IMG/VR virus record: IMGVR_UViG_3300034072_000696
Location: 1-53,802 of that record
Length of the DNA: 53,802 bases
Origin: a virus
Strand: one strand, 5' to 3'
The notes beneath the pieces were generated by a model, which did no database searches, had not been told where the DNA came from, and saw only the letters and a list, made by a program, of their open reading frames with translations. The position numbers were made by a program, and so were the translations under genes. Below, piece after piece: positions 5,939-23,382 of this stretch (positions are counted from its first letter, which is position 1; the number at the start of each line of letters is the position of its first letter).

Positions 5939-5953
5939 GTCGCTAGTGCAACA

Positions 5954-5979
5954 ACCCACACCCTCACGGGTGTGGGTTT
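5954..5979 (+). terminator. intrinsic terminator-like hairpin after the coat gene
   Basis: ACCCACACCC (5954-5963), loop TCAC, GGGTGTGGGT (5968-5977), then a short T stretch. The 10-bp perfect stem is placed so that it could reduce transcription beyond the coat gene. The weak T tract suggests partial read-through to the adaptor genes. Confidence 0.7.
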
Positions 5980-5995
5980 CCTTACGGAGAACAAT

Positions 5996-6265
5996 ATGTC
6001 CCACACCATCGAATCCCTGGCCGCCATCCCTGGCGTTCAACTGGTCGCCGGCTCGTTTATCGCCCGCATCAACCACGCGAACACCGAGATCGCGACCGTC
6101 GGCAAGCATGACGGCATCCTGTCGTTGACCGAGGCCGGCATCGAGTTCCTCAAGACCCTGGAAGCCCCCGCCGCGAAGGCCGCAGCGCCGACCAAGGGTA
6201 AGGCTGCCAAGGCTGACGCCGCTCCGGTTGTCGGCGACGCTGAAAAGTCTCTGGACCTGGACTAA
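5996..6265 (+). CDS. small head protein with Lys/Ala-rich tail
   Basis: 89 residues from the ATG at 5996, preceded by ACGGAGA. The first 55 residues look globular; the rest is a Pro/Ala/Lys linker ending in an acidic LDLD tail. The position, directly after the coat gene, suggests a head decoration, stabilisation or completion protein, but no family is recognised. Confidence 0.65.
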   Translation: MSHTIESLAAIPGVQLVAGSFIARINHANTEIATVGKHDGILSLTEAGIEFLKTLEAPAAKAAAPTKGKAAKADAAPVVGDAEKSLDLD

Positions 6266-6271
6266 ACGCCC

Positions 6272-6601
6272 ATGCCGTACACGATGCAGGATGTCATCGA
6301 CAAGGGCCGCTATCCGCTTAACGATCCGACCAAGGTTCGTTACCCGGATGCGGCGCTGCTCGGCTTCGGCAACGACGCCATCCTGCTCACGCGCAAGAAG
6401 CGCCCCGATTTGTTCCTCGGGGCGTGGTCGGCTCTGCCGGGCAATCTTGCGTTCGGGGATACGTTCCCGCTCCCCGACGAGTACGTACCGCTCGTCGCGG
6501 ACTACATTTCTGGCCGCGCCGAGCTGATCGACGACGAACACGCGAACTCCGGCCGTGCCGAGAAGCTCGTGATGACCTTCTATGAGGGCCTTCTGACGTG
6601 A
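6272..6601 (+). CDS. head-tail adaptor-like protein
   Basis: 109 residues, starting six bases after the previous stop. It resembles short phage adaptor proteins encoded just before tail-tube A: an N-terminal MQDVIDKG-type segment, a central aromatic and Pro-rich loop, and a helical end. It overlaps the next gene by GTGA, so the two are translationally coupled. A role at the head-tail joint is inferred from position. Confidence 0.6.
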   Translation: MPYTMQDVIDKGRYPLNDPTKVRYPDAALLGFGNDAILLTRKKRPDLFLGAWSALPGNLAFGDTFPLPDEYVPLVADYISGRAELIDDEHANSGRAEKLVMTFYEGLLT

Positions 6602-7239
6602 GTACCGCCGCTTGGGAGACCCTGTTCGACGACGTGCTGCCGGAAGTCAGCGCGTGCGCGCAGAACGTGGCTGCAGCGGCGATCCGCCGGGCCACGATCG
6701 AGTTTTGCCGCGACACCCTGGTCTATAGCGCGATCCTCGCGCCGATCAACGTCGTCGCGGGCCAGCGCCGCTACATCCTGACGCCCCCGTCAGCCGACGT
6801 GGCGGTAGGCATGATCTTGAATCTGTCGCTCGGTGGGGCTACGTGCCACCCGGTCGCGCCGGATGAACTCGCGGCGAACAACCCGTCCTGGATGCGTGAG
6901 ACGGGCTCGCCGCGCGGCTTCATGGAGCCGGAACCGGGCACCGTTGAGTTTTTCCCCATCCCGGACACGAACACCACTGCAGGACTGCAGGCGCACGTGG
7001 CGCTGATCCCGAGCCAAACCGCGCTCGGCGCTCCTGCGTGGCTGTTTGAGAAGCACGGGTTCGAGATCGCCGAGGGCGCCAAGCACTACTTGATGCTGAC
7101 CCCGGGCCGCCCGTACTCCAACCCGACCCTGGCCGATTTTTACGGGCGCCGTTTCGCCAGCGCCAAGACCGACGCCAAGAACGCTGCCAATCGTGGCGGC
7201 GCCCGCGCCGGTATGCGCATCCAGCTACGAAAGAGTTAA
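6598..7239 (+). CDS. tail tubular protein A-like (gatekeeper / adaptor)
   Basis: 213 residues, GTG start inside the previous stop (GTGA). The pattern of an N-terminal helical bundle with FCRDT, a beta-rich middle and a helical C-terminus ending with basic residues is that of T7 gp11-type adaptors, which form the ring between portal and tail nozzle. Length is near the T7-family size (about 200). The call combines length, order and composition. Confidence 0.65.
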   Translation: MSTAAWETLFDDVLPEVSACAQNVAAAAIRRATIEFCRDTLVYSAILAPINVVAGQRRYILTPPSADVAVGMILNLSLGGATCHPVAPDELAANNPSWMRETGSPRGFMEPEPGTVEFFPIPDTNTTAGLQAHVALIPSQTALGAPAWLFEKHGFEIAEGAKHYLMLTPGRPYSNPTLADFYGRRFASAKTDAKNAANRGGARAGMRIQLRKS

Positions 7240-7242
7240 GCC

Positions 7243-8442
7243 ATGCCGAACCTACTCCTATCTGACTACGCGGTCACTACGCTGGCGTCCTCGTTCGACG
7301 CCGACGCGGGTACGTTCACGGTTGCGCCGGGCACCGGGGCGCTGTTCCCGACGCCCATCGGCGGCACGGGCACGTACATGATCCTGACGCTGGAGGACGA
7401 AGCCGGGAACACCGAAAAGATTAAGGTCTCGCACCGGGCGGGGGATGTGTTCGGCTCGAACACGTACCCGATTCAGCGGGGCTACGGCGGCACGTCCGCC
7501 CGCGCGTGGACTGGCGGGGACTCGCTCTCGCTGCGCTGGAACAAGACGACCGCGGAAGAAATGGCGGCGGAGGCAGCGGAGGGCGCGTTCGCGGCGCACG
7601 TTGTTGAGCCTGACCCGCACCCGCAGTACCTGCAGCTTGACGACGTGGCGGGTCTGTTCGTCGAGCGTTCTTCGGTCACGCCGTATATGCAGGCTGTGTT
7701 CGGGTCTGCGGACGCCGCGACGGTGCGCGGGGCAATCGGCGCGATGAGCGCGAGCGTCGTGCTCGGTAACTACCGCGGCGTGGCGTATTACGAAGATACG
7801 GCCACGCTCTCGCTGACGCACGCGGGGAAGCTGCTCCTCGCTGGCTCCACAGCCAGCACTAATTGGGCGATAAGCCTCCCGACCCCGACCGCGGATGACA
7901 TTGGTAAGCGATTCATGCTGCTGAACACCAGCGGTAAGCCCCTGGTGATTTCTCCGCCGGCGGCAGTCGCACCGGATGAGGCCGTGCTTATGGTCGACAA
8001 CGCCAATGTCGCGACCTTCACTCTACCCGCCACGGACACTATGGAATTCACTGTGGTCGGCTATGGCGCGATCAGCGGGGGCGGCAACAAGACGACGTGG
8101 GTCGGCCTGCACGTTCACAAGAAGACCCCCGTAACGGTGAACACGTTCAATGGGCGCACGGGTGCGGTTGCGCTGACGTCGGCGGATGTCACCAGCGCCC
8201 TTGGGTACACCCCGGCGAATACCTCACACACGCACAGTTACGTCGCGACCGATAGTAGTTCCGGGCGGGTTGGCAGTTACGGGACCGCTACCGGGTCACC
8301 TACGAGCGCGAACGCCACTATCTCGGGGGTGGGGAGCTGGGCTCCGCTTGGGGGTGGAACTTGGCGCCGCGCGTACGGCGTGGGTTGGGACCGCGGACCC
8401 GATGGGGACTCTTACACGTACCTGTTCCAACGCATCGCCTAA
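7243..8442 (+). CDS. tail fibre protein
   Basis: 399 residues. An N-terminal part with beta-turn repeats is followed by a HPQYLQ-type segment (about 125) and a C-terminal half with the phrase NTFNGRTGAVALTSADV (about 290-307) and LGYTPANTSHTH, both common in collar and shaft regions of phage fibres. The end is Gly/Trp/Arg-rich, as in receptor-binding tips. The next gene encodes a fibre assembly chaperone, supporting the call. Together with the spike at the window start, the virion may carry two adhesins. Confidence 0.8.
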   Translation: MPNLLLSDYAVTTLASSFDADAGTFTVAPGTGALFPTPIGGTGTYMILTLEDEAGNTEKIKVSHRAGDVFGSNTYPIQRGYGGTSARAWTGGDSLSLRWNKTTAEEMAAEAAEGAFAAHVVEPDPHPQYLQLDDVAGLFVERSSVTPYMQAVFGSADAATVRGAIGAMSASVVLGNYRGVAYYEDTATLSLTHAGKLLLAGSTASTNWAISLPTPTADDIGKRFMLLNTSGKPLVISPPAAVAPDEAVLMVDNANVATFTLPATDTMEFTVVGYGAISGGGNKTTWVGLHVHKKTPVTVNTFNGRTGAVALTSADVTSALGYTPANTSHTHSYVATDSSSGRVGSYGTATGSPTSANATISGVGSWAPLGGGTWRRAYGVGWDRGPDGDSYTYLFQRIA

Positions 8443-8451
8443 AGGAGCGAC

Positions 8452-8889
8452 ATGATGGAAGCACGCAACCCGGCTTGGGCGAACGCAGAACACACGGTGA
8501 TTAATCTTGAATGGAACCACCCTGAGTACGGTTGGATTCCCTTTTCGGCGCTACCGGACGACGCCGAGGAGCACGGCCGCGCACTATTTCTGCTCGCAAC
8601 GGCGGAGGAGTTCGGACCTGTCGCTGAATACGTCGCGCCACCGGAGCCAGTGCCCAGCCGCTGCACCCGTCGCCAAGGTCGCCTTGCGCTGCTAAACGCG
8701 GGCTACCTGGAGATGGTGGAAGCGTCCATTGCGGCCATCGTCGACCCGGTGGAGCGCACGAAGGCACAGATTGAGTACGAGGCCGATACGTGGGAGCGGG
8801 CCAACCTGTTCCTGCAGGCTATGTGGGCGCAGCTCGGCGGTACGCCCGAGGGCCTGGACGACCTTTTCCGCTACGCGGTTACGCAATAA
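8452..8889 (+). CDS. tail fibre assembly chaperone-like protein
   Basis: 145 residues; AAAGGAG precedes two tandem ATGs (8452 and 8455), either of which could be used. The C-terminal half starts with TRRQGRLALLNAG and ends with LDDLFRYA, a pattern of the Tfa-like family that helps fibres trimerise. Its position immediately downstream of the fibre gene agrees. Confidence 0.7.
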   Translation: MMEARNPAWANAEHTVINLEWNHPEYGWIPFSALPDDAEEHGRALFLLATAEEFGPVAEYVAPPEPVPSRCTRRQGRLALLNAGYLEMVEASIAAIVDPVERTKAQIEYEADTWERANLFLQAMWAQLGGTPEGLDDLFRYAVTQ

Positions 8890-8902
8890 CTCAGGAGCGC
8901 GC

Positions 8903-9145
8903 ATGGTTATGACTACAACTGAAACCGCGGCGGAACGCGCGTCGGCGACCGCAACGTATCTCGCCAGTGGAGGGGCTGTGCTGTTCGGATTGACCGCGAA
9001 TGAATTGGCCGCGTATGTCGGTATCTTTGTGGCTGTGCTCACCTACGGGACGAACCTGTGGTTCAAGCACCAGCACCTGAAAATGGTCCGTGAAGCACTG
9101 CGCAAAGCGCCCGAGAAGGCCGTATGCGAGGTTGACACGCTGTGA
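8903..9145 (+). CDS. holin, two transmembrane segments
   Basis: 80 residues from ATG 8903, preceded by AGGAG. There are two close hydrophobic segments (about 18-34 and 36-52), then a Lys/Arg-rich tail that would lie in the cytoplasm, a class II holin layout. It overlaps the endolysin start by GTGA. Holins of this kind open the inner membrane; with a SAR endolysin they may act as a pinholin. Confidence 0.75.
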   Translation: MVMTTTETAAERASATATYLASGGAVLFGLTANELAAYVGIFVAVLTYGTNLWFKHQHLKMVREALRKAPEKAVCEVDTL

Positions 9146-9693
9146 TCCAGGTCCGAGTACCCCCGAAGCTGCTGCAGGTCAGCGGTGCGCTCCTGGTGGC
9201 CCTTGCGGTCTCCGAGGGGTTCGTGGGTGTCGCAGAGCCGCCCATCCCTGGCGATGTGCCGACTTTCGGGTATGGCGCGACCACGCACGCTGACGGCTCT
9301 CCCGTCCGCCGCGGGGAGCGCATCGACCCGGTCCAAGCGCTCGGGCTCCTACTGGAAGACGCGAACGCTCACGCTGCTGCTGTGGTGCGCTGCGCCGGTG
9401 CGCCGCTGTACCAGCACGAGTTCGATGCGTACACGCAGCTCGCGTACAACATCGGCGAGGCGGGCTTCTGCCGCTCGTCGATCCCGAAGAAGCTGGCCGC
9501 CGGAGACTACGTGGCGGCTTGCGCGACGATCCTCGACTACGTGTGCGGTCCGGCCAAGGAGCACGAACGGGTGACGACGCCGGGCGAACGCTGCTATCGC
9601 GCCCCGCACCAAGCACCCAAGAAAGTGATCCCGGGTCTTGAAAACCGACGGAGCAAAGAGTTCCGGCAGTGCATGGGGGTGCAGCATGGGTAA
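9142..9693 (+). CDS. SAR endolysin, T4-lysozyme-type muramidase
   Basis: 183 residues, GTG start coupled to the holin stop. A hydrophobic, Ala/Gly/Leu-rich N-terminal segment (about 10-23) with no cleavage site looks like a signal-arrest-release anchor. The catalytic triad of glycoside hydrolase family 24 can be placed at Glu25, Asp38 and Thr41 (TFGYG). Several Cys residues follow, common in endolysins regulated by disulfide exchange. It cleaves the glycan backbone of peptidoglycan after release into the periplasm. Confidence 0.85.
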   Translation: MIQVRVPPKLLQVSGALLVALAVSEGFVGVAEPPIPGDVPTFGYGATTHADGSPVRRGERIDPVQALGLLLEDANAHAAAVVRCAGAPLYQHEFDAYTQLAYNIGEAGFCRSSIPKKLAAGDYVAACATILDYVCGPAKEHERVTTPGERCYRAPHQAPKKVIPGLENRRSKEFRQCMGVQHG

Positions 9694-10093
9694 GAGCCTC
9701 GCCGCCGTAGCGGCTGTGATCGCTATCGCCCTCCTGGGTTACGGGAAGGGATACCACGACGCCAAACAAGCTGTCCAGGTGGCGGAAGGCAAGAAGCTGA
9801 CTGCGCAAGTGGCGGCGAACAAGAAACTACAGGAGACGCTCGATGATGAAACTCAAGCTGCTGCGGATCGTGAGCGGGCGCTGCGCATGGACCTTGCCGA
9901 TTCTGTTGAGCGCCTGCGCAAGCGGCCCGACCGTCTACCCGCCGAAAGCCGCGCTCACTGCCAGGGTGCCACTGGAGCAGAACTCAGTGCAGAGGATGGA
10001 ATCTTTCTTAGAGGGGAAGCTACCTCCGCCGCGATCTGCTGGTCAGAACTCGGACGGTGCTACCGCTTCGCGGACCGAGTAGAGGGTAAGTAA
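9686..10093 (+). CDS. Rz: i-spanin, Rz-like
   Basis: 135 residues from the ATG at 9686, overlapping the endolysin end by eight bases. An N-terminal transmembrane segment (about 4-20) is followed by a periplasmic Lys/Gln/Glu-rich coiled coil (about 28-75) and a Cys-containing C-terminus. It would span the periplasm with Rz1 and fuse inner and outer membranes at lysis. Its TAA shares one base with the next ATG. Confidence 0.8.
   Translation: MGKSLAAVAAVIAIALLGYGKGYHDAKQAVQVAEGKKLTAQVAANKKLQETLDDETQAAADRERALRMDLADSVERLRKRPDRLPAESRAHCQGATGAELSAEDGIFLRGEATSAAICWSELGRCYRFADRVEGK
9843..10082 (+). CDS. Rz1: o-spanin, Rz1-like lipoprotein nested in Rz
   Basis: 79 residues, encoded entirely within Rz in another frame. 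The N-terminus has a short signal sequence with lipobox LSAC (lipid attachment at about Cys25), and the mature part is Pro-rich, as in Rz1 proteins. Two tandem ATGs (9843, 9846) are possible starts. Full nesting of Rz1 within Rz is the arrangement known from lambda. Confidence 0.85.
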   Translation: MMKLKLLRIVSGRCAWTLPILLSACASGPTVYPPKAALTARVPLEQNSVQRMESFLEGKLPPPRSAGQNSDGATASRTE

Positions 10094-12078
10094 TGGGCGC
10101 CATTCGCATTGCCAACTTCGGGGGTGAAATCCCCCGTATGGACCGCCGCGCGCTGCCGGACACGAACGCGCAGATTTGTCGCGGGTCGCAGTTGGCGGAT
10201 GGCGCGCTCACCCCGCAGAAGACGCCGTTGCGCGTTGAGCTGGTGGGGCCGTCGCGCAGCGTGTTTCGCTTGTATGACAGCGGGGGGGACTACTGGCTCC
10301 GGTTTTCGCAGGATGTGGACGTCTGTCGCGGCCCGATTGCTGGTGACACGAGCTTCCGCGTACTGTACTCGTCCGCCGAGTTCGAGCCGCGACAGACCAA
10401 CCTCGCGCTGGCTAAGTCGGCGTCGCCGTTCCCCGGCGCGTGTTTCGTCCTGGGCGTTACGCCACCGGCGGCGAAGCCTACTTACTCGGTGTTCGGCGGC
10501 AGCGGGACCAATGAGTCCCGCGCATATGTCTACACCCTCGTCACCCAATGGGGCGAGGAGTCTTCGCCGTCCCCCGCGGGCGACATCGTCACTGGCTTCG
10601 CCAACGGCACGTGGAACCTGGACCTACCAAGCGGCCCGCCGCCCAATACGGGCGCTATCACGGGGGTCACGACTACCGCGACTACGGTGACAGTGGAAAC
10701 TGACTCGGTTTACGGGCTCCGTGTGGGCGAGCGGATTGCGTTCGCCGGCGTGCTCGGCATGACCGACCTCAACGCGGAATTCGCCATTCAGGCGATCGAC
10801 ACCGCGGCGAAGAAGATCACGGTCGCACTGGCGACGGAGCAAACCTATGTCGTCGGTGGGGCGTGGGCGCGCAAGGCCCCGCACAACACGACGGGCATGA
10901 AGAAGCGGATTTATCGCTCCATCACCACGGGCACGTCCGCCGAGTATTTCTTCATCGGCGAAGTCGACGTGACCACGGCGACGTTCGCGGACAACGTAAC
11001 CATCATCGGCGAGCCATGCCCGACCGTTGGATGGGCGATGCCGCCGGTCGGCATGCAGGGGATCGGGATTCTGCCGTCTGGAGCCGCGTATGGCTTCGTC
11101 GACAACGAGGTGTGCTTCTCGGAGCCGGGCGCCGTGTATGCGTGGCCCGTCCAGTACCGCATGACGTGCGCGAGCCCGGTCGTGGCGGTCAAGGACTTCG
11201 GGCAGTCGCTGGTCGTCGGCACCAAGGGTAGCCCCGAGATCATCTCCGGTATCGACCCCGCGGTAATGACCAAGTACAAGTTCCCCGTCGCGTGGCCGTG
11301 CGCCTCAAAGCGGTCGATGGTGAGTGTGCTGGACGGCGTGGTGTACGCGTCGCCCTTCGGCTTGGTCCTGGTCGACAACGCCGGCCCGCGCATGGCTGCA
11401 GACGCATGGTTTGACTCGTCCGCATGGCGTCGCCGCGTAGATTCCAACAACCTGCTGGCGGTCGAGTACAACGGCAAGTACGTGAGCCGGGTAGGGGAAA
11501 CCCTGATGTTCTTCGGCGAAGGTAAGCTGGTGTTTTTCAGCATGCCGGAAGTGACCGCGCTCTACACCGACCAGGCCAACGGCAAGCTCTATGTCGTCTC
11601 AGACGGCGAGCTGGTGGAGTGGGCGGCAGGCTCTGCGCGGTACGCGCTCGACTGGAAAAGCAAGGAGATCGTCTCTCCGCGCCCGTTGAGCCTCGGCGCC
11701 GCCAAGGTGGACGCTGACTTCACCGCCACGCCGGAGGAAACCGCGGCCTTGGCTGCAGCGCGCCAAGCCGTCATCGACGAGAACCTGGCGCTGATCGCTA
11801 CGGGCGACATCAAGGGCGGCATGGGCATGCTCCCGATGGGGAAGGCTGTGCTCAATGGGTCGCTGTTGAAGGCCCCGCCGCCGGCGTCGTACGACCAACT
11901 GGCGCTGATCCTGTACGTCAACAACGACGCGGTGTACTCCGTGCCGATCACGGACAGCCGTGCGGTGCGCCTCCCGGCCATCGGCAAGTACGACAACTTC
12001 GCGCTGCGCATCACGGGTAACGTGAAGGTTTGGGCGGTCCTGGTCGCTGATACGAAGGATGGACTCAAGGATGCGTAA
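10093..12078 (+). CDS. tail tubular protein B-like (tail nozzle)
   Basis: 661 residues, beta-rich throughout. The opening, with an IPRMDRRALP phrase followed by Asn/Gln-rich strands, is typical of T7 gp12-like nozzle proteins, as is the alternation of Gly/Trp/Tyr-rich beta repeats. Its length is somewhat below T7 gp12 (about 790). It starts at the base shared with the Rz stop (TAATG). It would form the distal tail tube. The call is by pattern, length and gene order. Confidence 0.7.
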   Translation: MGAIRIANFGGEIPRMDRRALPDTNAQICRGSQLADGALTPQKTPLRVELVGPSRSVFRLYDSGGDYWLRFSQDVDVCRGPIAGDTSFRVLYSSAEFEPRQTNLALAKSASPFPGACFVLGVTPPAAKPTYSVFGGSGTNESRAYVYTLVTQWGEESSPSPAGDIVTGFANGTWNLDLPSGPPPNTGAITGVTTTATTVTVETDSVYGLRVGERIAFAGVLGMTDLNAEFAIQAIDTAAKKITVALATEQTYVVGGAWARKAPHNTTGMKKRIYRSITTGTSAEYFFIGEVDVTTATFADNVTIIGEPCPTVGWAMPPVGMQGIGILPSGAAYGFVDNEVCFSEPGAVYAWPVQYRMTCASPVVAVKDFGQSLVVGTKGSPEIISGIDPAVMTKYKFPVAWPCASKRSMVSVLDGVVYASPFGLVLVDNAGPRMAADAWFDSSAWRRRVDSNNLLAVEYNGKYVSRVGETLMFFGEGKLVFFSMPEVTALYTDQANGKLYVVSDGELVEWAAGSARYALDWKSKEIVSPRPLSLGAAKVDADFTATPEETAALAAARQAVIDENLALIATGDIKGGMGMLPMGKAVLNGSLLKAPPPASYDQLALILYVNNDAVYSVPITDSRAVRLPAIGKYDNFALRITGNVKVWAVLVADTKDGLKDA

Positions 12079-12256
12079 ACCGACGATCGTGGTGGTGACT
12101 CGAGACCCGACGCTCCGGCCGACGCTTGACGCCATCAAGGAAAACATCGAAATCCTTACGGGGCAGCGCAGGAACGGGATCAAGCCGCTGCCCGCAACCG
12201 CTTCACTGGCGGATGTGATCGCAAAGGTGAATCAGATTATTGACAGGCTAGACTGA
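12071..12256 (+). CDS. 61-residue hypothetical protein
   Basis: Begins at the ATG 12071 inside the last codons of the tail-tube gene, with GAAGGA ten bases upstream; an ATG at 12059 is less well spaced. Basic N-terminus, then a helical region ending VIAKVNQIIDRLD. No recognised family. It is the last gene before an operator copy and the GNAT gene. Confidence 0.6.
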   Translation: MRKPTIVVVTRDPTLRPTLDAIKENIEILTGQRRNGIKPLPATASLADVIAKVNQIIDRLD

Positions 12257-12267
12257 GCCGTGTATAT

Positions 12268-12289
12268 GCTTACGTGTAACCACGTAAGC
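12268..12289 (+). promoter_or_regulatory. operator copy with extended palindrome
   Basis: GCTTACGTGTAACC (12268-12281) is followed at once by ACGTAAGC, so GCTTACGTG and CACGTAAGC also form a nine-base inverted repeat around TAAC. It lies eight bases before the GNAT ATG at 12297. It could bind two overlapping regulator dimers or form a hairpin that hides the weak ribosome site. Confidence 0.6.
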
Positions 12290-12296
12290 GGCGAAC

Positions 12297-12923
12297 ATGA
12301 CCGAAATCCAAGCGATTCTGCGTAGCGTTCTGGCGATGAATCAGGGAAGCCGCCTGACGCCGGAACTCGCGCTCGGAATCGAGCAAAGCATCGTCACCCA
12401 GGTGAGCGCGCTTCGCAGTCAGGACAAGGCAATCGCGCTGCGCGGGTTCGTCCCCGAGCAGTATCAGGACGTGGTCTTCGCCGTGGAGCGCATGGAAAAC
12501 CTCGTCGACGAGATCGAGCCGCTGCACCACGCGCACTGGCAAGAGTCGGAATCCGCGCGCCATGAGCTGCCGTACAACCCGAACTACGAGGGTTGGGTGC
12601 AGCACGAGCGCGCAGGTTCCTTCATGGTGTTCACCGTCCGTAACGCCACGGGCGCGCTCAAGGGCTACATGCAGATGTATGTCGGGCGCTCGAACCATAC
12701 CGGCGTCCTTCTGAGCAACGAAGACGCACTGTTCCTGGACCCTGAGGTTCGTAAGGGCTTCGTCTGCCGCCGGTTCGCTGCGTACGCCGAAAAGTGCATG
12801 CGCGAGCTTGGCGTGCGGGAAATCCGTCTGTCGGTGAAGAACACCAACGGCGTGTGGAAGGTGTGGACCCGCATGGGGTTCGCCGCCACGGGCGTGGAAC
12901 TCATCAAGATTCTGGAGGATTGA
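12297..12923 (+). CDS. GNAT-type acetyltransferase
   Basis: 208 residues. The N-terminal third is helical. The C-terminal half carries the GNAT core: a central strand with MVFTVRN, a GLxP-like region DPEVRKGFVCRRFAAYAEK in the place of the acetyl-CoA pyrophosphate loop, and the family ending LSVKNTNG..VWTRMGF. Podophages often carry such proteins among their virion genes; substrates are unknown. No strong Shine-Dalgarno is seen, and the operator immediately upstream suggests separate control. Confidence 0.75.
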   Translation: MTEIQAILRSVLAMNQGSRLTPELALGIEQSIVTQVSALRSQDKAIALRGFVPEQYQDVVFAVERMENLVDEIEPLHHAHWQESESARHELPYNPNYEGWVQHERAGSFMVFTVRNATGALKGYMQMYVGRSNHTGVLLSNEDALFLDPEVRKGFVCRRFAAYAEKCMRELGVREIRLSVKNTNGVWKVWTRMGFAATGVELIKILED

Positions 12924-12924
12924 T

Positions 12925-13833
12925 ATGTGTTCAAGCGGTAGCAGCGCGCCGGCGCCGGACCCTAACATTGGCATCGCCGCGCTCAAGAACTCGAAGATCG
13001 CGGAAGACACGCTGAACTGGTACAAGAAGATGTACGAGGAGAATCTGCCGCGTCAAGCCGCGGCGGATGACATGGCGCAGAAGCTCTACAAGCAGCAGTT
13101 CGACATGGCCGAGCACAACAAGGGCCGCGCCGACCAGCAGTGGAATTACTGGCAGGATACGTACCAGCCGGTCGAACGCCAGACGGTCATGGACTCGATG
13201 GGCTCCCGTTACCTGGGCGACAGCGACCGCGCGCTCCTGGCCTCGATTGTGTCTGGCACGAGCAACTTGGGCGGCGACGCGCTGACGTCCGAAATGGACC
13301 GCATCTCCCGCGCTGCAGCCGAGGGCGCCGCTACTCAGGCGGTTACCAGCTCGCAGGCGCTTGCGAACAGCTCCTACGCACAGCAGGCGCGCAACCTGTC
13401 CCGTTCGGGTATGGACCCGTCGCGCATGGCAGCCGCGGCTGCCGGCCTGGCGCAGAACCAGACCCTCACCAACGTGACCGCCGCGAACATGGCGCGTCAG
13501 GGCGTGTCGGATCAGCAGGCGGGTCTCCGTACCGGCGTGGCGAACTTCGGTCGCAACATGCCGAACACCGCTGGCCAAGCCTTCGGCCTCGCTACCCAAG
13601 CGGGTAACAGCGCGGGCCAGAACGGCATGATCGGCAACAACTACAACGCCGCGCAGAACGCGATGGTCGGGCAGGGCTTTGCGTCCGCCGCCAACACGAA
13701 CGCGTCGGTGATGTCGGGTCTGAATCAGCAATACGGCACCCAGGTCTCCGCGTGGGGCCAGCAGCAACAGGCTCAAAGCCAGGGCGCAGCAGGCTTGGGT
13801 TCGCTGGTTGGTATGGCGGCGATTGCGATTTGA
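12925..13833 (+). CDS. internal virion protein, gp14-like
   Basis: 302 residues; GGAGG before the ATG, one base after the GNAT stop. An N-terminal Cys/Ser-rich stretch is followed by long Gln/Asn/Ala-rich helices and a Gly/Gln-rich C-terminal region ending in a short hydrophobic segment. It is the first of three large Gln/Ala-rich proteins in the order of T7 gp14-gp15-gp16, which are ejected to make the channel across the cell envelope. Sequence similarity is compositional only. Confidence 0.65.
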   Translation: MCSSGSSAPAPDPNIGIAALKNSKIAEDTLNWYKKMYEENLPRQAAADDMAQKLYKQQFDMAEHNKGRADQQWNYWQDTYQPVERQTVMDSMGSRYLGDSDRALLASIVSGTSNLGGDALTSEMDRISRAAAEGAATQAVTSSQALANSSYAQQARNLSRSGMDPSRMAAAAAGLAQNQTLTNVTAANMARQGVSDQQAGLRTGVANFGRNMPNTAGQAFGLATQAGNSAGQNGMIGNNYNAAQNAMVGQGFASAANTNASVMSGLNQQYGTQVSAWGQQQQAQSQGAAGLGSLVGMAAIAI

Positions 13834-15215
13834 GCGCGAACCGTCTCCACTCTCTTGGCGTTGAGCTTCTGGAGTCCCACGTTGTCGGTGGTACTGCGGA
13901 GGCTCAAGCCGCGTACTTTCTCAGCAAGCTCGACTTGCCGGAGGGGGCGCACGTCGTCGACATGGGTTGCGGCTCCGGCCGCTTCGCAAAGGTTCTGAGC
14001 GAGTTGTCCCCTCTGGAGCGGTGCTCCTTGGTCGCCCCCGATGCCGGGGAAATCCTGGTTGACGGGGCGGTTTTTTCCAAGGTGCAGGCCGACTATCACG
14101 AGACGGGGCTGCCGAGCGGCACGGCTGACGCTGTGCTGTTCATGTACTCGTTCCTGTACTCGCGCCCGAACAAGGCGCTGGCCGAGGCCCGCCGTCTACT
14201 CAAGCCGAACGGCAAGCTGCTCCTGTGGGAGCCGCTGGACGCGCCGAAGGCGTACGAGGAGCTGTTCCCGGGCAACCGCGCCATGACGCGCGAATTCGTC
14301 CTGGCCGAACTCAAGGCCGCCGGCTTCGTTGTTCGCGAGGTGGAGACGCCCGAGGCTGATAGCACTGCGGCGCAGAAGGCGCTCGCCGAACTCAGCGAAA
14401 GCTGGGTATTCGACGCGACGTTTGCCAAGGCGACCCCCACGCTGATCGTGGCGGAACGCGGCGCCCGTGACGACGCCGTCAACCACTCCTGGATCGCACA
14501 AGCGTTCGCGCGCCACCCGCGTGTCGCGTTCGAGTTTTCTGGCGGCCGTGACTCTCTGGCTGCTCTGTATCTGTTGCGCCCGTACTGGGGCCGCATGACG
14601 GTCTATCACACGGACACCGGCGACCAGTTCCCGGAGACCCAAGAGGTCGTGAGCCGAGTCGAGGCCATCGTGCCGCGCTTCGTGCGCATCAAGGGCCGCC
14701 TGCAGGAGTCGATCGAGCAGTTCGGGCTCCCGACGGACCTGTCGCCCGCAGGGGCGAACTCGGGTATGGGGGCGTGGCACTACGGCTCCCCGCGCCTGCA
14801 GGATCGCTACGACTGCTGCTACCGCAGCCTCATGGCGCCGATGCACGAGCGGGTCACTGCGGACGGCTGCACCCTGGTCATTCGCGGCCAGCGTGACACG
14901 GACTACAAGCTGCCGCCGATGCGGTCGGGTGAGTCGTTCGGCGTCGAGGTGCTGTACCCGATTGAGCGGTGGAACGACGACGACGTGCTGGGGTATCTGC
15001 AGGAGGTGGGGGTAGCTCCGGCCCGCTTCTACGAGCACGGCCTGGAGACGTCGCCGGAATGTATGCGCTGCAGCGCGTGGTGGGATGACAAGCGCGCGGC
15101 CTACATGAAGCAGTTCCACCCGGAAGCACACAAGGAATACGTGGCGCGACTCGTCTTCGTACGGAACGCCATCATGCCGCACCTGGCGGCGCTGGACACT
15201 GAGCTGGAGGGCTGA
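13830..15215 (+). CDS. fusion: SAM methyltransferase + PAPS reductase-like PP-loop protein
   Basis: About 461 residues if the TTG at 13830, which overlaps the previous stop (TTGA), is the start; the frame is open further upstream. Domain 1 (about 1-215) is a class I SAM methyltransferase: VDMGCGSGRF (about 44) is motif I and LLKPNGKLLLWEP (about 126) is the post-II region. Domain 2 (about 225-461) is a PAPS reductase / adenine nucleotide alpha-hydrolase fold: FSGGRDSLA (about 236) is the PP-loop, then YHTDTG, and a late Cys pair (ECMRC, about 410). It sits between two internal virion genes. It could modify nucleic acid by thiolation and methylation, or act in sulfur metabolism; the substrate is unknown. 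Confidence 0.85.
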   Translation: MSANRLHSLGVELLESHVVGGTAEAQAAYFLSKLDLPEGAHVVDMGCGSGRFAKVLSELSPLERCSLVAPDAGEILVDGAVFSKVQADYHETGLPSGTADAVLFMYSFLYSRPNKALAEARRLLKPNGKLLLWEPLDAPKAYEELFPGNRAMTREFVLAELKAAGFVVREVETPEADSTAAQKALAELSESWVFDATFAKATPTLIVAERGARDDAVNHSWIAQAFARHPRVAFEFSGGRDSLAALYLLRPYWGRMTVYHTDTGDQFPETQEVVSRVEAIVPRFVRIKGRLQESIEQFGLPTDLSPAGANSGMGAWHYGSPRLQDRYDCCYRSLMAPMHERVTADGCTLVIRGQRDTDYKLPPMRSGESFGVEVLYPIERWNDDDVLGYLQEVGVAPARFYEHGLETSPECMRCSAWWDDKRAAYMKQFHPEAHKEYVARLVFVRNAIMPHLAALDTELEG

Positions 15216-16678: not shown

Positions 16679-16687
16679 GGATCATTG

Positions 16688-19600
16688 ATGCGCTCTCGGC
16701 TCGACCAGCTACTCGCCAACGATAACGGCCAGGATCAACTGAACGATCCTGGCTTTGTCACCTCCGTCAAGCGCGGTATCGGCTCCACGATCACCGGCTT
16801 TGGGGAAATGGCGGGCGATATTACCGGCGACTACAACAACTCCATCCGCCAGTACGGCGAGGAGATGGTAGCGCGTAACCCCGCGGGGATTGTTTCGACG
16901 CAGGACATCGGCAGCAGCCCGTGGTTGGCCGTGAAGGAAGCCGCGGGTAGCTCCGTGGCGCCGCTACTCTCCGTCGGTCTGACGCGCGGTGCGGGCCGTG
17001 TCGCCGGCGGCCTTGGTGCGGGTCGTACCGCTGCTGCGCTCCGTAACCCTATCACTGCCGCCGAAGTCGCGGGTCTGCCGTCGTACGGCGAAATCGGTGA
17101 AGCACAGCGCGAGACCGGGACCGAGAACTGGGCATTGAAGCAGGGCGGCGCGTTGGCCGTCGGCGCGATCGAAAACCTCGGCGGTGTGCAGCGTGCACTG
17201 GGCTGGGGTGGCGGACGCGGTATGACGGAAGCCGCAGCACGAGAATTCATGGCCTCGCCGGGCCGTTCGTTCGGTAAGGCGTGGTTGAAGATGGGCGCCC
17301 AGGAAGCGGGCGAAGAAATGCTCCAGACGCCCATTGAGCGGGGTGCTGGCGGTCGTGATGCGTTCGACCAAGAGGGTATGGACCAGATCGGCTTCGGTGG
17401 TGCTATGGGCGCCATCGGCGGCTTGGCATTGGGTCCGCTGGGCGCTGCCGTGCAACGCAGCGGCGCACGTAACCACATCGAGCGAATTGACGCCGCACGC
17501 GCCACGCTGGCCGATTACAACGCGCCCTATGAGGATCGGCTGGACGCCGGCCAGTTCCTGACCCGTGTCATGGCGAACGACGTCAACGACGCGCAGGCGC
17601 AAGCCTGGTGGGGCGGCTACAACGAGGCGCTTGTTCAAGACCGCGACGTGCACGCCGCGAATGCTGCGATGGAAGCACGCCGCGCAGCCGTCGAGCAAGA
17701 GCTGCAGGCGGTCCACGACGAGCTGTTGAAGGCTGACTTCAATGCTTACCTGCGGGAGCAGTTGGGTGACCGTGGTGCATCCACGGACCTCCTCGACGCG
17801 ATCAACAAGACCACCGGCGTAACCAACATGCGGGAGCGCCTGCCGCTGTTCTACGGGCGGGACATCCCCGAGGTGGGCGGCGTGCAACCGACCAACCGTA
17901 TGACCCAGCCGGGCCAGGAGCGCGCCCAGTGGTGGCAGCAGCAGGGCGAAGGCGATCTGACCTCCCGCGGCCCGGGCTACGGCGACTGGTGGAACACGCA
18001 AGACACCACCCCGTATGAGGCGCGCGCAGCCGCGCAGCCGGGGGCGACCCGCGATCTGTTCTCGAACGAATGGCGAGCACCGGCGCAACCGGAAGCCCAA
18101 GTGGAGCAGGACGCCACGATGCGCCCGAACCGACGCCAAATGGCGCTGGACCTCGACGCCGAACGCCCGCCGATCTACATGGGCGCCACGGGGGCGGGCT
18201 TCTCCCAGCTCCCGATCACCGACGACATCCGCCCGGCTGCGAACATGGAATCCAGCCCGATGGTCGCCGCAGCTCGTGCGTTCCGCCAGCAGGGCGGCTC
18301 CAAGCGCGTATGGGACAACTTCCAGGCTCGTGTCGCTGATCTGGCGACCAACCCGGTCGAATTGGCTCGTGCGCTGCAGGCGCGTGAAGCCACAGCAGGT
18401 CAGGGCAAGGACACGTCTCACCCGAAGGCATGGCAAGCCGCCATCGCCGCGCTCAACATCCAAGGAGATCAGAATGGCAAAGGCATCGTTCAAGGCGCAG
18501 TCGGTACGAACCAGGACGGATACGCGAACTCCCAACAGCGTGACCAATCCCAAGACCTCGCCCAACGGGGTGGGAACCAAGTACAAGGGGATGCTGGAAA
18601 CCGATACGGCCAAGAAGTTGCGCGGCAAGAAGTAGATGCGCGGGCTCTAGTCGCCGCGGTCAAGGGCGACAGCAAAGAGGCGCAGCTTCTCCGTAAGGTG
18701 CTTGGCGTCGACGCGAACCTGGAAGTCGTGGGTAACCCGATGCCGTACAGTGAAGCGGGGCGCCTGTTTGGTTACGGCGGTGGCGGCAAGGACTCGCGCC
18801 AAGGTGCAGCAGCGGCACTGAACCGCATCCTCAAGCCCGTGCGCAAGCAAGGCGAGCCGCTGGCCAAGGTGCTCGACCGCATCGTCGCGCGCCTGCACGA
18901 CGTGGATATTACGACCGGCAGTTTCTCGCAGCTTGCGGGTGAGGGCGGTATCAGCGTACATCAGCGCGGGGAGACGGACAAGCGCACCCTGGCCGGCTGG
19001 GGTTCCAGCGTCGACTCCGAAACGCTTGCAGCGCAAAAAAGCGAGGAACCGGATGCGGACCTGCGCCATGTGGAGCGCACCACGGGCGCGATGCTCGAAG
19101 ACCGCGTAGTTGAGTATGAGGGCGATGGCGGCCAGGTCGAAGTTGAAGTCATCGACCAAGGCACCGCTGAGTTCAACGATGGCGCGGGACAATTCGACGA
19201 AGACTCGCACCTAAGCCGCCCCGCCGCGGAAGAAGACGCCACGGAGATGGCTGACGTCGAACTCGACGCCCGCTGGGTGGATTACAATGGCAACCCGATC
19301 AAGCAGGTCGACATCGACGACGCGCTCGAAGACTGGGAAGACCGCGACGGCACCACGCTACCGAAGCAGTTCCATCTGCAGTGGACGAAGGCGTGGGTGA
19401 ATTATCACAGCGGTGCGTTTGACGACCGCGTATTCCAGGAGATTTACCGTGGACTCACAACGCAAGTCGACACCGTCAACGCCCGAGAAAGCGGCGATTC
19501 GTCAGCAGCACCGGCAGGAGAGCCGGCGCGCGGCAACGAAGCTGCCGGAGCATATCAAGGGCTCCCCGAAGCTGGAGAAGATGTGGGCAGCGGGCGAGAC

Positions 19601-22600
19601 AATCCCGAATTGGCGGGAGGCGCCCGAGCTGTACCCGCACTTGAGCGAAGCGCAGATGGCAGCGCTGGACGCGGGATCGAGAGCGTACGCGGACGAGCTT
19701 CTAGCGGAAATCAGGACCGCGAAGTAACCGCCGAAACCATCAACGACCCGGCCTTGGTCGAGTCGTGGTGGAACAAGGGCGCCCGCGCAATGGGCGTGAC
19801 TTCGTGGGAAGGTCTGACTGAGGGCCAACGCCGCGTCCTCCTGAACACGGAGACGAAGCAAGACTTCGACGAGACCGCGCAGGAAATCGCCGACGACCTG
19901 AATGACGCCGGCCCCGGCCAGGACGCTATGTACTCCGAGGGCGCCGCTGGCGGCACCACGGTGGAAGCGGTCAACGCGGCCATCAAGCGTCTTTTCACCT
20001 CTCCGGCCCGCGCGGGTCTGGTGACGGTCTACGCCACGCAGGATGAGGCCAAGACCGCCGGCGCACTGAGCCAAGACTATAAGGGTCGTGCCCTGGGTTT
20101 CACCCACAAGGGCAAGGTCGGCCTCATCGCTGAGAACATCCGACCGGGTCAGGAGCTGGCCGTGCTGCTGCACGAAGTCGGCGTCCACCTCGGGATGAAG
20201 AAGCTCGTTGGCGCGGCCAATATGGACGCCATGATCGCGCAGATCGACGCATGGGCCGCGCGCAACGACAACAGCATCGAAACCCGCGTCGCCAAGCAGG
20301 CAGTGGAGCGCGCAGCGGCATCGTCGTCCAAGAACAAGACCGAGGAAAAGCTGGCCTACATGATCGAGGGCCTGGTCGCCGAGGGCGTGACCCCGACGCA
20401 GATGAAGTCCGCTGCCGGCCGGTTCCTGAATCGCGTGTGGAGCGCGGTTCGTGTTGCACTGCAGCAATTCGGCATCGGCGCCAAGTACGACGGGCAGCAG
20501 CTCGTGGACCTAGCCTATGGTGCTGCGAACATCGACGCCGCTGCGGTCGACACTGACAGCAGCTACTCTGAGTCGCCGGTCTTCAACGCCTGGTCGCAGA
20601 TGATGACCCCGGACAAGGCCAAGGGTGTCCTCGGCAATGCGTGGGACAAGGTCAAGACCATCGACCTCGGTTGGCGCACGCTGCGCGAGCTGTCCGAGCA
20701 TTCCAAGATGCCTTGGGTGGAGAAGTACGCCGATGCCCTGCAGGCCATGCAACGCGGCTCGAAGCAAATCCTGAACCGCGCCTCGACCGTGGATTACGAG
20801 TGGGCGCAACTGGACAAGGCCACCGCTGACCGGCTCTCGCAGGTCATGCGCGACGCCACGCGTGCGATGTTCGACCCCGCAGTCGACAAGCCGATGGACG
20901 AGGCGCAATCTGCCTTGGCCAAGCGGTACGAGGGTCTGTCCGACAAGGCCAAGGCGGTCTACACCAAGGCTCGGGACTTCTACGCCGACAACCGCCAGCA
21001 GCGCCAGCAGATCATGGAGAAGATCGCGGCGGAGACGAGTGATGCTGCAGTGCAGCAAGTTGTGCGCGAGTACAAGAACTTGAGGGGGCCGTACTTCCCC
21101 CTGATGCGCTTCGGCGAGTTCTACACCGTCGCCATGTCCAAGGAACTGGCCGCCCTCACTGCGAAGCAGGAGCAGGGGATGACCAGCGCCGCCGAGGACA
21201 AGCGGATCGCCGCGTTGCGTAAAGACCCGGCGCACTACATCACACGCACCCACGACAAGCTCTCGGAGGCCAAGGCCGACATGGCGGCCCTGCAGAAGCG
21301 CTTCCCCGAGGTGCGGTACAACCGTGTGGCCGATCGCCGCAGCAGCATTACCGCCTCGATGCCGGAACTGGAGCGCGTCACTGCGTCTCTGACCGCTGGC
21401 ATGCAGAAGGATGGCGCTGCCGCTATCCGCGACGCGATGGCTCAGATTTATTTCGACATGCTGCCGGAGCACCACGCGTTGAAGCGGGAGATGAAGCGCG
21501 AAGGCGTCCACGGCGAAAGCTCGGACATGCGCCGCGTGTTCTCTGCATCAGCCATCCAGCAGGCCCACTACATCAGCCGCCTGGAGCATGCCAAGGGTGT
21601 GTCCGAGGCACTGGAGGAAGGCCGCCGCGAAAGCACGAACTCCGACGCGACCGCGGTCTACAACGAGATCGTGAAACGGTCCAACACCGCGATGAAGCAG
21701 GATACGCCCAACGGGCTCGTGTCGGCCCTGGCATCGGCCAGCTACTTCGCGCACTTGGGTCTGTCGCCCGCGTTCATCCTGACCAACATGACTCAGGTGC
21801 CGGTGGTGGCGTACCCGTGGTTGGCTGCGCGCTACGGCGCCGGTGCCGCGTCCCGTGCGATCGCGACGGGCTACGCGGACGCCACGAAGATCATCAAGTC
21901 CACGTACAAGGGCAAGAACTGGCGTGCGGAACTCGACTGGAGCCAAGCCGGCCTTTCGTCCGACGAAGGCGCCATGCTGACTCACCTGCTGAACCAGAGC
22001 CTGCTGGACGTGACGATCGAGCACGATCTGACGGCTGTGGCCGAGTCCTCGCACGGCAAGATGAACGAGTACATGAAGATGGCGAACATGCCGGTCCACG
22101 TGACTGAGCTGATGAACCGTTCGACCGTGGCGCTTGCGTCGTATCGCCTGGCCCGTGGGAAGGGTCAAGCCCACGATGCAGCCGTCAAGACCGCAGTCAA
22201 GGCTGTGGCGGACACCCAGCTCGACTACACGGGCCTCAACGCCGCGCGCCACATGCAGACCCTGTTCGGTAGCCGGGATATGGCCCGTCTCGCGTTCCAG
22301 TTCCGCAAGTTCCAGCACGGCATGCTGCGCATGATCGGTCGCTCTATCCACGACGCCATCGGCGCCAACGGTGTGAGCGCAGAAGATCGTGCCGTCGCGC
22401 GCCGCCAGCTCGCGTACCTGGGTGCGACCACTTGGGCGTTCGCCGGTGTCCTGGGTATGCCTCTTGCCGGCACGGTGGCCTGGGTACTCGAAGCGCTGAT
22501 CCCGGAAGACGATGACGAGCCGCTGGACCTCGAAGTGGCGCTTCGCAACGTCATGACCGATATGCTGGGCAAGGAAGGCGCGGCGGTCGTCACCAACGGC

Positions 22601-23281
22601 CTCGTGGGGTCTCTGCTGGGCATCGACCTGACCAGCCGCGTCGGTATGGGCGACATCGCCTCCCCGACCCCATTTGCGCGTTCGGGGCGTACCGCGCAGG
22701 AAACCACGGCCAACTACTACGCCGCGGCGTTCGGTGGTGCTCCACTGGGGACCGTTGCCGACACGCTGGACGGCATCACCAAGATTGCCTCCGGCGACAT
22801 CGCCAAGGGGTTGGAAAAGGCGCTGCCGCTCAAGCTGGCGCAGAATCTGGTCCGCTCGGAGCGGTTCAGCCGCGAGGGTATGAGCGACAGCAAGGGCAAC
22901 ACGATCCTGTCGGAAGACAAGTTCGACTTCATGGACCTGGCGATGCGTGCGGCGGGTTTCCAGACCAAGAAGGAGTCCGACTACTACGCGGCCAACTCGG
23001 CGGTCATGAACCGCAAGGAAGCGGCCAGTGAGGTTCGGACGAACCTGCTGCGGGCCTACACCAAGGCCAAGCTGGCGGGGGAACCCACGGCAGAAGTCGA
23101 CGCCAAAATCCGCGAGTTCAACCAACGCCACCCGGAGAAGGGGGTCCGCATTGACGCGAGCACGAAGCTCAAGTCTTTGGAAGCCCGCCGCAAGATGGCG
23201 AAGGAACGGAACGCGTCGGGGCTACGGGCCGATAAGGGCAACAAGCCCTATCTGGATCAGGCCCGCTTCGTCGGGGAGTGA
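16688..23281 (+). CDS. giant internal virion protein, gp16 / PLxRFG-type
   Basis: 2197 residues from ATG 16688, six bases after AAGGA. The N-terminal 300 residues contain Gly/Ala-rich hydrophobic stretches. The middle (about 600-1020) is low-complexity, Gln/Gly/Glu-rich and holds two genes in another frame. About residue 1160 there is HEVGVH, a HExxH zinc-peptidase-like motif. The last 1000 residues are long helices with a hydrophobic hairpin (about 1910-1950) and a Lys-rich end, like phage polyvalent or PLxRFG proteins. By position it is the third ejection protein. Cleavage of peptidoglycan or protein by the HExxH region is possible but unproven. Confidence 0.7.
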   Translation: MRSRLDQLLANDNGQDQLNDPGFVTSVKRGIGSTITGFGEMAGDITGDYNNSIRQYGEEMVARNPAGIVSTQDIGSSPWLAVKEAAGSSVAPLLSVGLTRGAGRVAGGLGAGRTAAALRNPITAAEVAGLPSYGEIGEAQRETGTENWALKQGGALAVGAIENLGGVQRALGWGGGRGMTEAAAREFMASPGRSFGKAWLKMGAQEAGEEMLQTPIERGAGGRDAFDQEGMDQIGFGGAMGAIGGLALGPLGAAVQRSGARNHIERIDAARATLADYNAPYEDRLDAGQFLTRVMANDVNDAQAQAWWGGYNEALVQDRDVHAANAAMEARRAAVEQELQAVHDELLKADFNAYLREQLGDRGASTDLLDAINKTTGVTNMRERLPLFYGRDIPEVGGVQPTNRMTQPGQERAQWWQQQGEGDLTSRGPGYGDWWNTQDTTPYEARAAAQPGATRDLFSNEWRAPAQPEAQVEQDATMRPNRRQMALDLDAERPPIYMGATGAGFSQLPITDDIRPAANMESSPMVAAARAFRQQGGSKRVWDNFQARVADLATNPVELARALQAREATAGQGKDTSHPKAWQAAIAALNIQGDQNGKGIVQGAVGTNQDGYANSQQRDQSQDLAQRGGNQVQGDAGNRYGQEVARQEVDARALVAAVKGDSKEAQLLRKVLGVDANLEVVGNPMPYSEAGRLFGYGGGGKDSRQGAAAALNRILKPVRKQGEPLAKVLDRIVARLHDVDITTGSFSQLAGEGGISVHQRGETDKRTLAGWGSSVDSETLAAQKSEEPDADLRHVERTTGAMLEDRVVEYEGDGGQVEVEVIDQGTAEFNDGAGQFDEDSHLSRPAAEEDATEMADVELDARWVDYNGNPIKQVDIDDALEDWEDRDGTTLPKQFHLQWTKAWVNYHSGAFDDRVFQEIYRGLTTQVDTVNARESGDSSAAPAGEPARGNEAAGAYQGLPEAGEDVGSGRDNPELAGGARAVPALERSADGSAGRGIESVRGRASSGNQDREVTAETINDPALVESWWNKGARAMGVTSWEGLTEGQRRVLLNTETKQDFDETAQEIADDLNDAGPGQDAMYSEGAAGGTTVEAVNAAIKRLFTSPARAGLVTVYATQDEAKTAGALSQDYKGRALGFTHKGKVGLIAENIRPGQELAVLLHEVGVHLGMKKLVGAANMDAMIAQIDAWAARNDNSIETRVAKQAVERAAASSSKNKTEEKLAYMIEGLVAEGVTPTQMKSAAGRFLNRVWSAVRVALQQFGIGAKYDGQQLVDLAYGAANIDAAAVDTDSSYSESPVFNAWSQMMTPDKAKGVLGNAWDKVKTIDLGWRTLRELSEHSKMPWVEKYADALQAMQRGSKQILNRASTVDYEWAQLDKATADRLSQVMRDATRAMFDPAVDKPMDEAQSALAKRYEGLSDKAKAVYTKARDFYADNRQQRQQIMEKIAAETSDAAVQQVVREYKNLRGPYFPLMRFGEFYTVAMSKELAALTAKQEQGMTSAAEDKRIAALRKDPAHYITRTHDKLSEAKADMAALQKRFPEVRYNRVADRRSSITASMPELERVTASLTAGMQKDGAAAIRDAMAQIYFDMLPEHHALKREMKREGVHGESSDMRRVFSASAIQQAHYISRLEHAKGVSEALEEGRRESTNSDATAVYNEIVKRSNTAMKQDTPNGLVSALASASYFAHLGLSPAFILTNMTQVPVVAYPWLAARYGAGAASRAIATGYADATKIIKSTYKGKNWRAELDWSQAGLSSDEGAMLTHLLNQSLLDVTIEHDLTAVAESSHGKMNEYMKMANMPVHVTELMNRSTVALASYRLARGKGQAHDAAVKTAVKAVADTQLDYTGLNAARHMQTLFGSRDMARLAFQFRKFQHGMLRMIGRSIHDAIGANGVSAEDRAVARRQLAYLGATTWAFAGVLGMPLAGTVAWVLEALIPEDDDEPLDLEVALRNVMTDMLGKEGAAVVTNGLVGSLLGIDLTSRVGMGDIASPTPFARSGRTAQETTANYYAAAFGGAPLGTVADTLDGITKIASGDIAKGLEKALPLKLAQNLVRSERFSREGMSDSKGNTILSEDKFDFMDLAMRAAGFQTKKESDYYAANSAVMNRKEAASEVRTNLLRAYTKAKLAGEPTAEVDAKIREFNQRHPEKGVRIDASTKLKSLEARRKMAKERNASGLRADKGNKPYLDQARFVGE
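18474..18635 (+). CDS. nested 53-residue basic protein inside the giant virion gene
   Basis: Starts at an ATG preceded by a full Shine-Dalgarno, AAGGAGA, with good spacing, and ends at TAG 18633-18635. It is in the +1 frame relative to the giant gene. Its third codon positions are clearly GC-rich (about three in four by eye), while the host frame there has near-random third positions and a Gln/Gly-rich product. The product is Lys/Arg/Thr-rich. No family recognised; a nucleic-acid-binding or virion role is possible. Confidence 0.65.
   Translation: MAKASFKAQSVRTRTDTRTPNSVTNPKTSPNGVGTKYKGMLETDTAKKLRGKK
19449..19727 (+). CDS. nested 92-residue protein inside the giant virion gene
   Basis: GTG start with AGGAG seven bases upstream (19437-19441), ending at TAA 19725-19727. 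Same +1 frame as the other nested gene. The N-terminus is basic, Arg/Gln-rich; the C-terminal part is a normal-looking globular sequence containing IPNWREAPELYPHLS and an amphipathic helix. GC-rich third positions favour this frame over the giant gene's own frame, which here is Gly/Ala/Glu low-complexity. A GTG at 19413 is a weaker alternative start. Function unknown. Confidence 0.7.
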   Translation: MDSQRKSTPSTPEKAAIRQQHRQESRRAATKLPEHIKGSPKLEKMWAAGETIPNWREAPELYPHLSEAQMAALDAGSRAYADELLAEIRTAK

Positions 23282-23290
23282 GTGGTACGC

Positions 23291-23323
23291 CCCCACGCTC
23301 TCTCCTGTGGGGAGCGCGTGGGG
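23291..23323 (+). terminator. hairpin at the end of the virion operon
   Basis: CCCCACGC (23291-23298) pairs with GCGTGGGG (23316-23323); an inner CTCC/GGAG pairing extends it. It lies ten bases after the giant gene's stop and before attP. No T tract follows, so it may be factor-assisted or simply protect the mRNA 3' end. Confidence 0.5.
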
Positions 23324-23382
23324 AATTCGCGTGCGATAATGCGACCGCGCGCCGCGGAACCAGCGTCCGCACGCGAAACTGT

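Follow-up and report, generated by a model that had tools for sequence, protein, structure and literature searches.

A probable 92-codon gene nested out of frame (+1) in a giant phage gene, and its recurrent counterparts in Bcep22-like giants

Does an open frame of 92 codons that carries its own Shine–Dalgarno (SD) motif and lies wholly inside a giant phage gene encode a protein, or is it a chance feature of the low-complexity sequence over which it runs? The window that we analysed is a virus record of 53.8 kb (53,802 nucleotides), and all coordinates given for the giant and its nested genes 1 and 2 refer to it. The giant, a DarB/PLxRFG-type gene (16685..23281, + strand), begins with TTG and encodes 2198 aa. 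Nested gene 2 (19449..19727, +; 92 aa) runs from GTG to TAA in the +1 frame of the giant, with a 7-nt spacer between its AGGAG (19437..19441, +) and the GTG. Nested gene 1 (18474..18635, +; 53 aa, ATG to TAG) shares this +1 frame, follows an AAGGAG (18462..18467, +) after a 6-nt spacer and ends 813 bases before nested gene 2. The initial annotation had reported the 92-codon frame with its GTG, its AGGAG and a distance of about 0.8 kb from gene 1, and the coordinates, the spacer and the TAA were all correct on inspection. SD motifs of at least 5 nt stand at just four starts in the +1 frame of the giant, two of which belong to nested genes 1 and 2.

Over nested gene 2, codons 922–1014 of the giant (19448..19726, +) form a low-complexity, low-hydrophobicity linker with atypical codon usage. 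Only 12–13% of its residues are ILVFMWYC, compared with a mean of 26% for the giant, which puts it near the bottom of the protein's 93-residue stretches in hydrophobicity and bears out the earlier description of the giant frame as low in complexity. The nested product is predicted to be all-helical (AlphaFold2, single-sequence; mean pLDDT 72.9, core blocks 84–88), and a structure search with this model returned no significant fold match. An additional +1 ORF at 23028–23339, with a GTG after AAGGA, overlaps the 3′ end of the giant and gives no signal in the codon-score scan.

Virion genes of the window match those of Bcep22-like podophages (major head protein, internal virion protein and virion structural protein), as does a PAPS-reductase-like gene, and the gene order resembles that of BcepIL02 upstream of the giant. 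The giant itself matched a DarB-like antirestriction family in PHROG (7.9e-73) and LPD39 in Pfam (aa 1315–1465, 6.4e-12); LPD39 was its sole Pfam match above the cut-off, with no methylase or SNF2 helicase domain among the matches. By tblastn, its C-terminal module has homologues in the C-terminal regions of giants from 33 phage records, and this homology, seen by tblastn and alignment, places it among the Bcep22-like DarB giants. The initial annotation had put the nested genes inside a virion gene, with which these results agree: judged by sequence, the giant is a member of a virion-protein family, and its DarB-like relative JC1 gp69 was detected in purified virions by mass spectrometry (PMC9144972). 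The window giant is a short form, most relatives having about 4,400–5,000 aa. Upstream of LPD39 it contains an LLHEVGVHLGM stretch that looks metallopeptidase-type, in a region weakly common to relatives. The nearest relative found (L009) has 41% identity in the C-terminal module, and its giant of 1448 aa holds no nested ORF that passes the SD and codon-score test described below; we found no close relative with a linker homologous to that of the window giant.

We measured what chance would produce in the window by keeping the giant protein fixed and shuffling its codons synonymously 2,000 times. The +1 frame stayed open over nested gene 2 in 12% of shuffles (P = 0.12), and the corresponding value for nested gene 1 was P = 0.80; an open +1 frame of the length of nested gene 2 is, alone, not significant. 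The evidence beyond chance is instead a codon signal, as distinct from openness. The top +1 coding segment of the whole giant, 19485–19712, scored 37.8, against a shuffled median of 7.4, a 99th percentile of 12.5 and a maximum of 20.4. The second-best segment, 18579–18632, scored 15.5 and ends at the last codon of nested gene 1. Among 538 windows of 92 codons each, drawn from nine genes, the one at 19445 ranked last for in-frame score and first for +1 score. GC3 of the giant frame, with a median of about 0.84, is only 0.52 over nested gene 2, the lowest value in the genes tested.

Following the proposal in the initial annotation that the 92-residue product be searched for stand-alone homologues, we searched phage records, viral contigs, genome contigs and 50 related records and found none; one weak hit (record G030, E 0.0036) was rejected as spurious, as it lies in a different frame inside a 552-aa tail-spike-like ORF. 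Pfam returned no match to nested gene 2, and PHROG none that was significant. A resemblance to the nested family of the third slot (hhalign E 0.0084, probability 4.8%) was also set aside, as the family profile did not recover nested gene 2 at E ≤10. For nested gene 1, a 12-residue match in phage PBC5 was attributed to chance, the PBC5 frame stopping soon after.

The arrangement itself recurs. We took giants from phage records and viral contigs, 61 in all, and searched them for alternative-frame ORFs of at least 45 codons whose start follows an SD motif by 4–11 nt and whose codon log-likelihood ratio, relative to the giant frame, is positive. Such ORFs were present in the +1 frame of 46 of the 61 giants and in the +2 frame of none. 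Synonymous shuffling never produced a positive score (60 shuffles for each of 21 giants), and other genes of the same phages yielded no passing ORF in 30,536 aa, compared with 23 in the 67,390 aa of their giants. Non-passing giants include short, incomplete and low-GC ones, on which the test has little power; among the short giants L002–L004, at about 25% identity, the complete one (L002) has no nested gene. Many giants carry a short nested ORF at about residues 600–1030 or a longer one at about 1200–2450, several carry both, and some have one near residues 3550–4240; there are up to three nested genes per giant, in giant genes of up to 15 kb. The initial annotation had thought it unusual to find two SD-equipped genes in one alternative frame, a view that this recurrence does not support. 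Its suggestion that they are accessory genes inserted into a tolerant linker survives in part: the genes look real and the linker tolerant, but in the traceable families nothing suggests a recent insertion. Every one of the 76 distinct matches to three such families is out of frame, at the expected offset, under a frame of more than 800 aa, with no free-standing copy among them. One giant contains an extra +1 nested ORF of 186 aa (L127:5599-6156, +) between its short and long nested genes; its Pfam matches are weak helix–turn–helix ones only, and we take it to resemble a phage HNH-type homing endonuclease.

We define these ORFs as the SD-equipped +1 nested genes of Bcep22-like giants, and nested gene 2 belongs with them by its DarB/PLxRFG-type host, +1 frame, AGGAG at a spacing of 7, 92 codons, low-hydrophobicity linker and codon log-likelihood ratio of 14.1 against the giant frame, at the low end of the class. 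Because nested gene 2 has no homologue, this assignment rests on anatomy and codon statistics and not on conservation; conservation of the nested frame among relatives is seen in other nested families.

Clustering linked 35 of the long nested proteins, including those of BcepIL02, JC1 and PEp14, into one family, whose phages have hosts including Klebsiella, Vibrio, Agrobacterium, Ochrobactrum, Pseudomonas and Microcystis. Its members have a weak relation to Pfam TnpV (PF14198; 16 of the 29 members scanned, best 3.6e-5), which stays below the Pfam cut-off in the member shown; the same scan matched nothing in control genomes and is uninformative as a control. The family is predicted to fold as a four-helix bundle (pLDDT around 90 over residues 1–70), for which a structure search gave no significant match, and no such proteins were found on plasmids. 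The family, at slot 2 of Bcep22-like giants, resembles nested gene 2 in host gene family, frame, SD, approximate size and location in a linker but not in sequence: hhalign gave a probability of 0.2%, and nested gene 2 did not match the family profile.

Selection in this TnpV-like family is frame-specific. In close pairs, the first, second and third positions of nested codons had substitution rates of 0.078, 0.073 and 0.206, respectively; in the giant frame, the third of these is a first codon position and the second a third position. Substitutions thus peak at the third position of the nested frame, and purifying selection therefore follows that frame. Consistent with this, of the 562 pairs with at least 20% nested identity, 539 were more alike in the nested frame than in the giant frame over the same codons; these alignments were built on the nested frame, which biases distant pairs, but the 34 pairs with more than 60% identity all show this excess. 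On the reasoning of Pavesi et al. (PMC3744397), the older of two overlapping frames is the one with genome-like codon usage. The codon statistics would then suggest that the giant linker is the overprinted frame, but stronger selection on the nested frame would leave a similar pattern.

Conservation in the family is also bounded by the start codon, which bears on whether such frames are entered by initiation or by recoding. Over the 12 codons before the start, nested-frame identity is 17%; over the 12 that follow, it is 65%. Starts are ATG in 32 members and GTG in 3, and in 14 of the 35 an in-frame stop lies at most 7 codons upstream. All 35 have an SD-like motif, as the scan required, against a background of 7.6%; in a profile search that dropped this requirement, 32 of the 33 family members from the first locus set still had an SD. 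The jump in identity at the start codon, together with the SD motifs, fits independent initiation and does not fit frameshifting, and on this sequence evidence the TnpV-like members are real, independently started genes. SD-like motifs can stimulate frameshifting, so the motif at nested gene 2 might instead drive a programmed frameshift that yields a shortened giant ending in nested sequence, with no separate protein. The N-terminal half of the PBC5 giant does continue in frame into a TnpV-like domain. Given the start-bounded conservation and nearby upstream stops in the TnpV-like family, and a window frame that is open for just 16 codons upstream of the GTG, we consider recoding highly improbable.

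Chance is the more serious alternative, by which the open frame of nested gene 2 would be spurious, running over a relaxed linker rich in Gly, Ala and Arg, with a coincidental SD and GTG. Its openness (P = 0.12), its product without homologues in the phage records, viral contigs, genome contigs and related records, and the frequency of SD motifs at +1 ATG or GTG codons of giants (7.6% for any motif, 2.2% for motifs of at least 5 nt) are all compatible with such an origin. A codon signal above all 2,000 shuffles is not, nor is an architecture shared in +1 by 46 of 61 giants and absent from +2 and from control genes, nor the frame-specific selection in traceable nested families, and we regard chance as unlikely. 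A selfish, homing-type element lodged out of frame in the giant would recall the 186-aa ORF of L127, with its resemblance to a homing endonuclease, and would have a precedent in the ShiLan hidden HNH endonuclease, an out-of-frame GTG-to-TAA ORF within a phage gene (PMC11855218). Nested gene 2 is, however, all-helical in its model and without any Pfam match, it has a ribosome-binding site where ShiLan elements have none detectable, and the traceable nested families have no free copies; this origin seems very unlikely. Finally, paired indels from sequencing or assembly would switch the frame locally and give exactly such a swap of coding signal, yet both frames are open, the ORF is bounded by SD and start at one end and a stop at the other, and the pattern is repeated in dozens of separately sequenced giants, making an artefact barely credible.

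We favour nested gene 2 as, probably, a genuine gene made by internal initiation and overprinted by a disordered linker, with the giant as a possible partner of its product. Its translation in the window phage is very likely. Ribosomes would start anew in +1 at an internal ribosome-binding site, AGGAG-7-GTG, on the giant mRNA to make a helical protein of 92 residues, and the remaining ribosomes would stay in the giant frame and read the same bases as disordered linker. Selection at such sites would act mainly on the small protein, the giant frame being merely kept open. Made beside the nascent giant from a shared message, the small protein would, on this reading, act on or with it, perhaps as an assembly, packaging or restraint factor for the virion-carried giant; co-location points to this partnership, which we put forward tentatively, at somewhat less than an even chance. 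More broadly, Bcep22-like giants could be covert polycistrons in which several linkers hold independent +1 genes whose products work with the giant, the small gene being constrained and the linker the overprinted newcomer, with the window as a divergent pair; for and against, we hold this generalization evenly balanced.

The nearest precedent is ShiLan, an HNH endonuclease domain hidden in another frame of a phage methylase gene (PMC11855218). There too a GTG-to-TAA ORF lies out of frame, and the larger phage gene reads through it without a stop as a loop or linker. ShiLan, however, is described as a mobile homing endonuclease without a detectable ribosome-binding site (PMC11855218), whereas nested gene 2 has a strong SD, no endonuclease match and a recurrent multi-slot layout. 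Rz1 within Rz, the spanins annotated in PEp14, BcepIL02 and JC1, is likewise a small gene fully nested with its own start, but Rz1 is a lysis lipoprotein in a short gene, as against helical proteins in the linkers of a giant. JC1 Rz1 is described as embedded, and the retrieved passages of the same report make no mention of a nested gene in JC1 gp69 (PMC9144972). The window giant belongs, through LPD39 and its DarB-like PHROG match, to the polyvalent, DarB-like giant virion proteins (PMC5512222), although it differs from those described in having no methylase or helicase domain by Pfam; the retrieved passages of that source on nesting, frames and overlap contain no nested genes. In the open full-text literature we came across no description of nested genes in DarB-like giants, and the 2011 Bcep22/BcepIL02 paper may mention them. 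None is annotated inside giants in the annotation tables examined, including those of BcepIL02 and JC1, because standard annotation retains a single frame at each locus.

A whole layer of phage proteins thus appears to have been missed, with up to three extra per giant gene, and the findings suggest a second use, as coding space, for the long linkers of giant injected proteins. They also invert the usual expectation, as in this conflict of frames the small hidden gene is the conserved one.

The giant of Sinorhizobium phage PBC5 is divided between two overlapping ORFs (L007:17-5488 and 5062-14694), with the TnpV-like domain in the frame of the first; this split would be explained by a frame change, whether natural or a sequencing error, upstream of the nested gene. 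In Pseudomonas phage Itty13, a giant frame open for 4112 aa (L095:5987-18322) is unannotated in NC_070969, which has antisense hypothetical proteins annotated in its place, and this giant contains a TnpV-like nested gene at 11001–11324.
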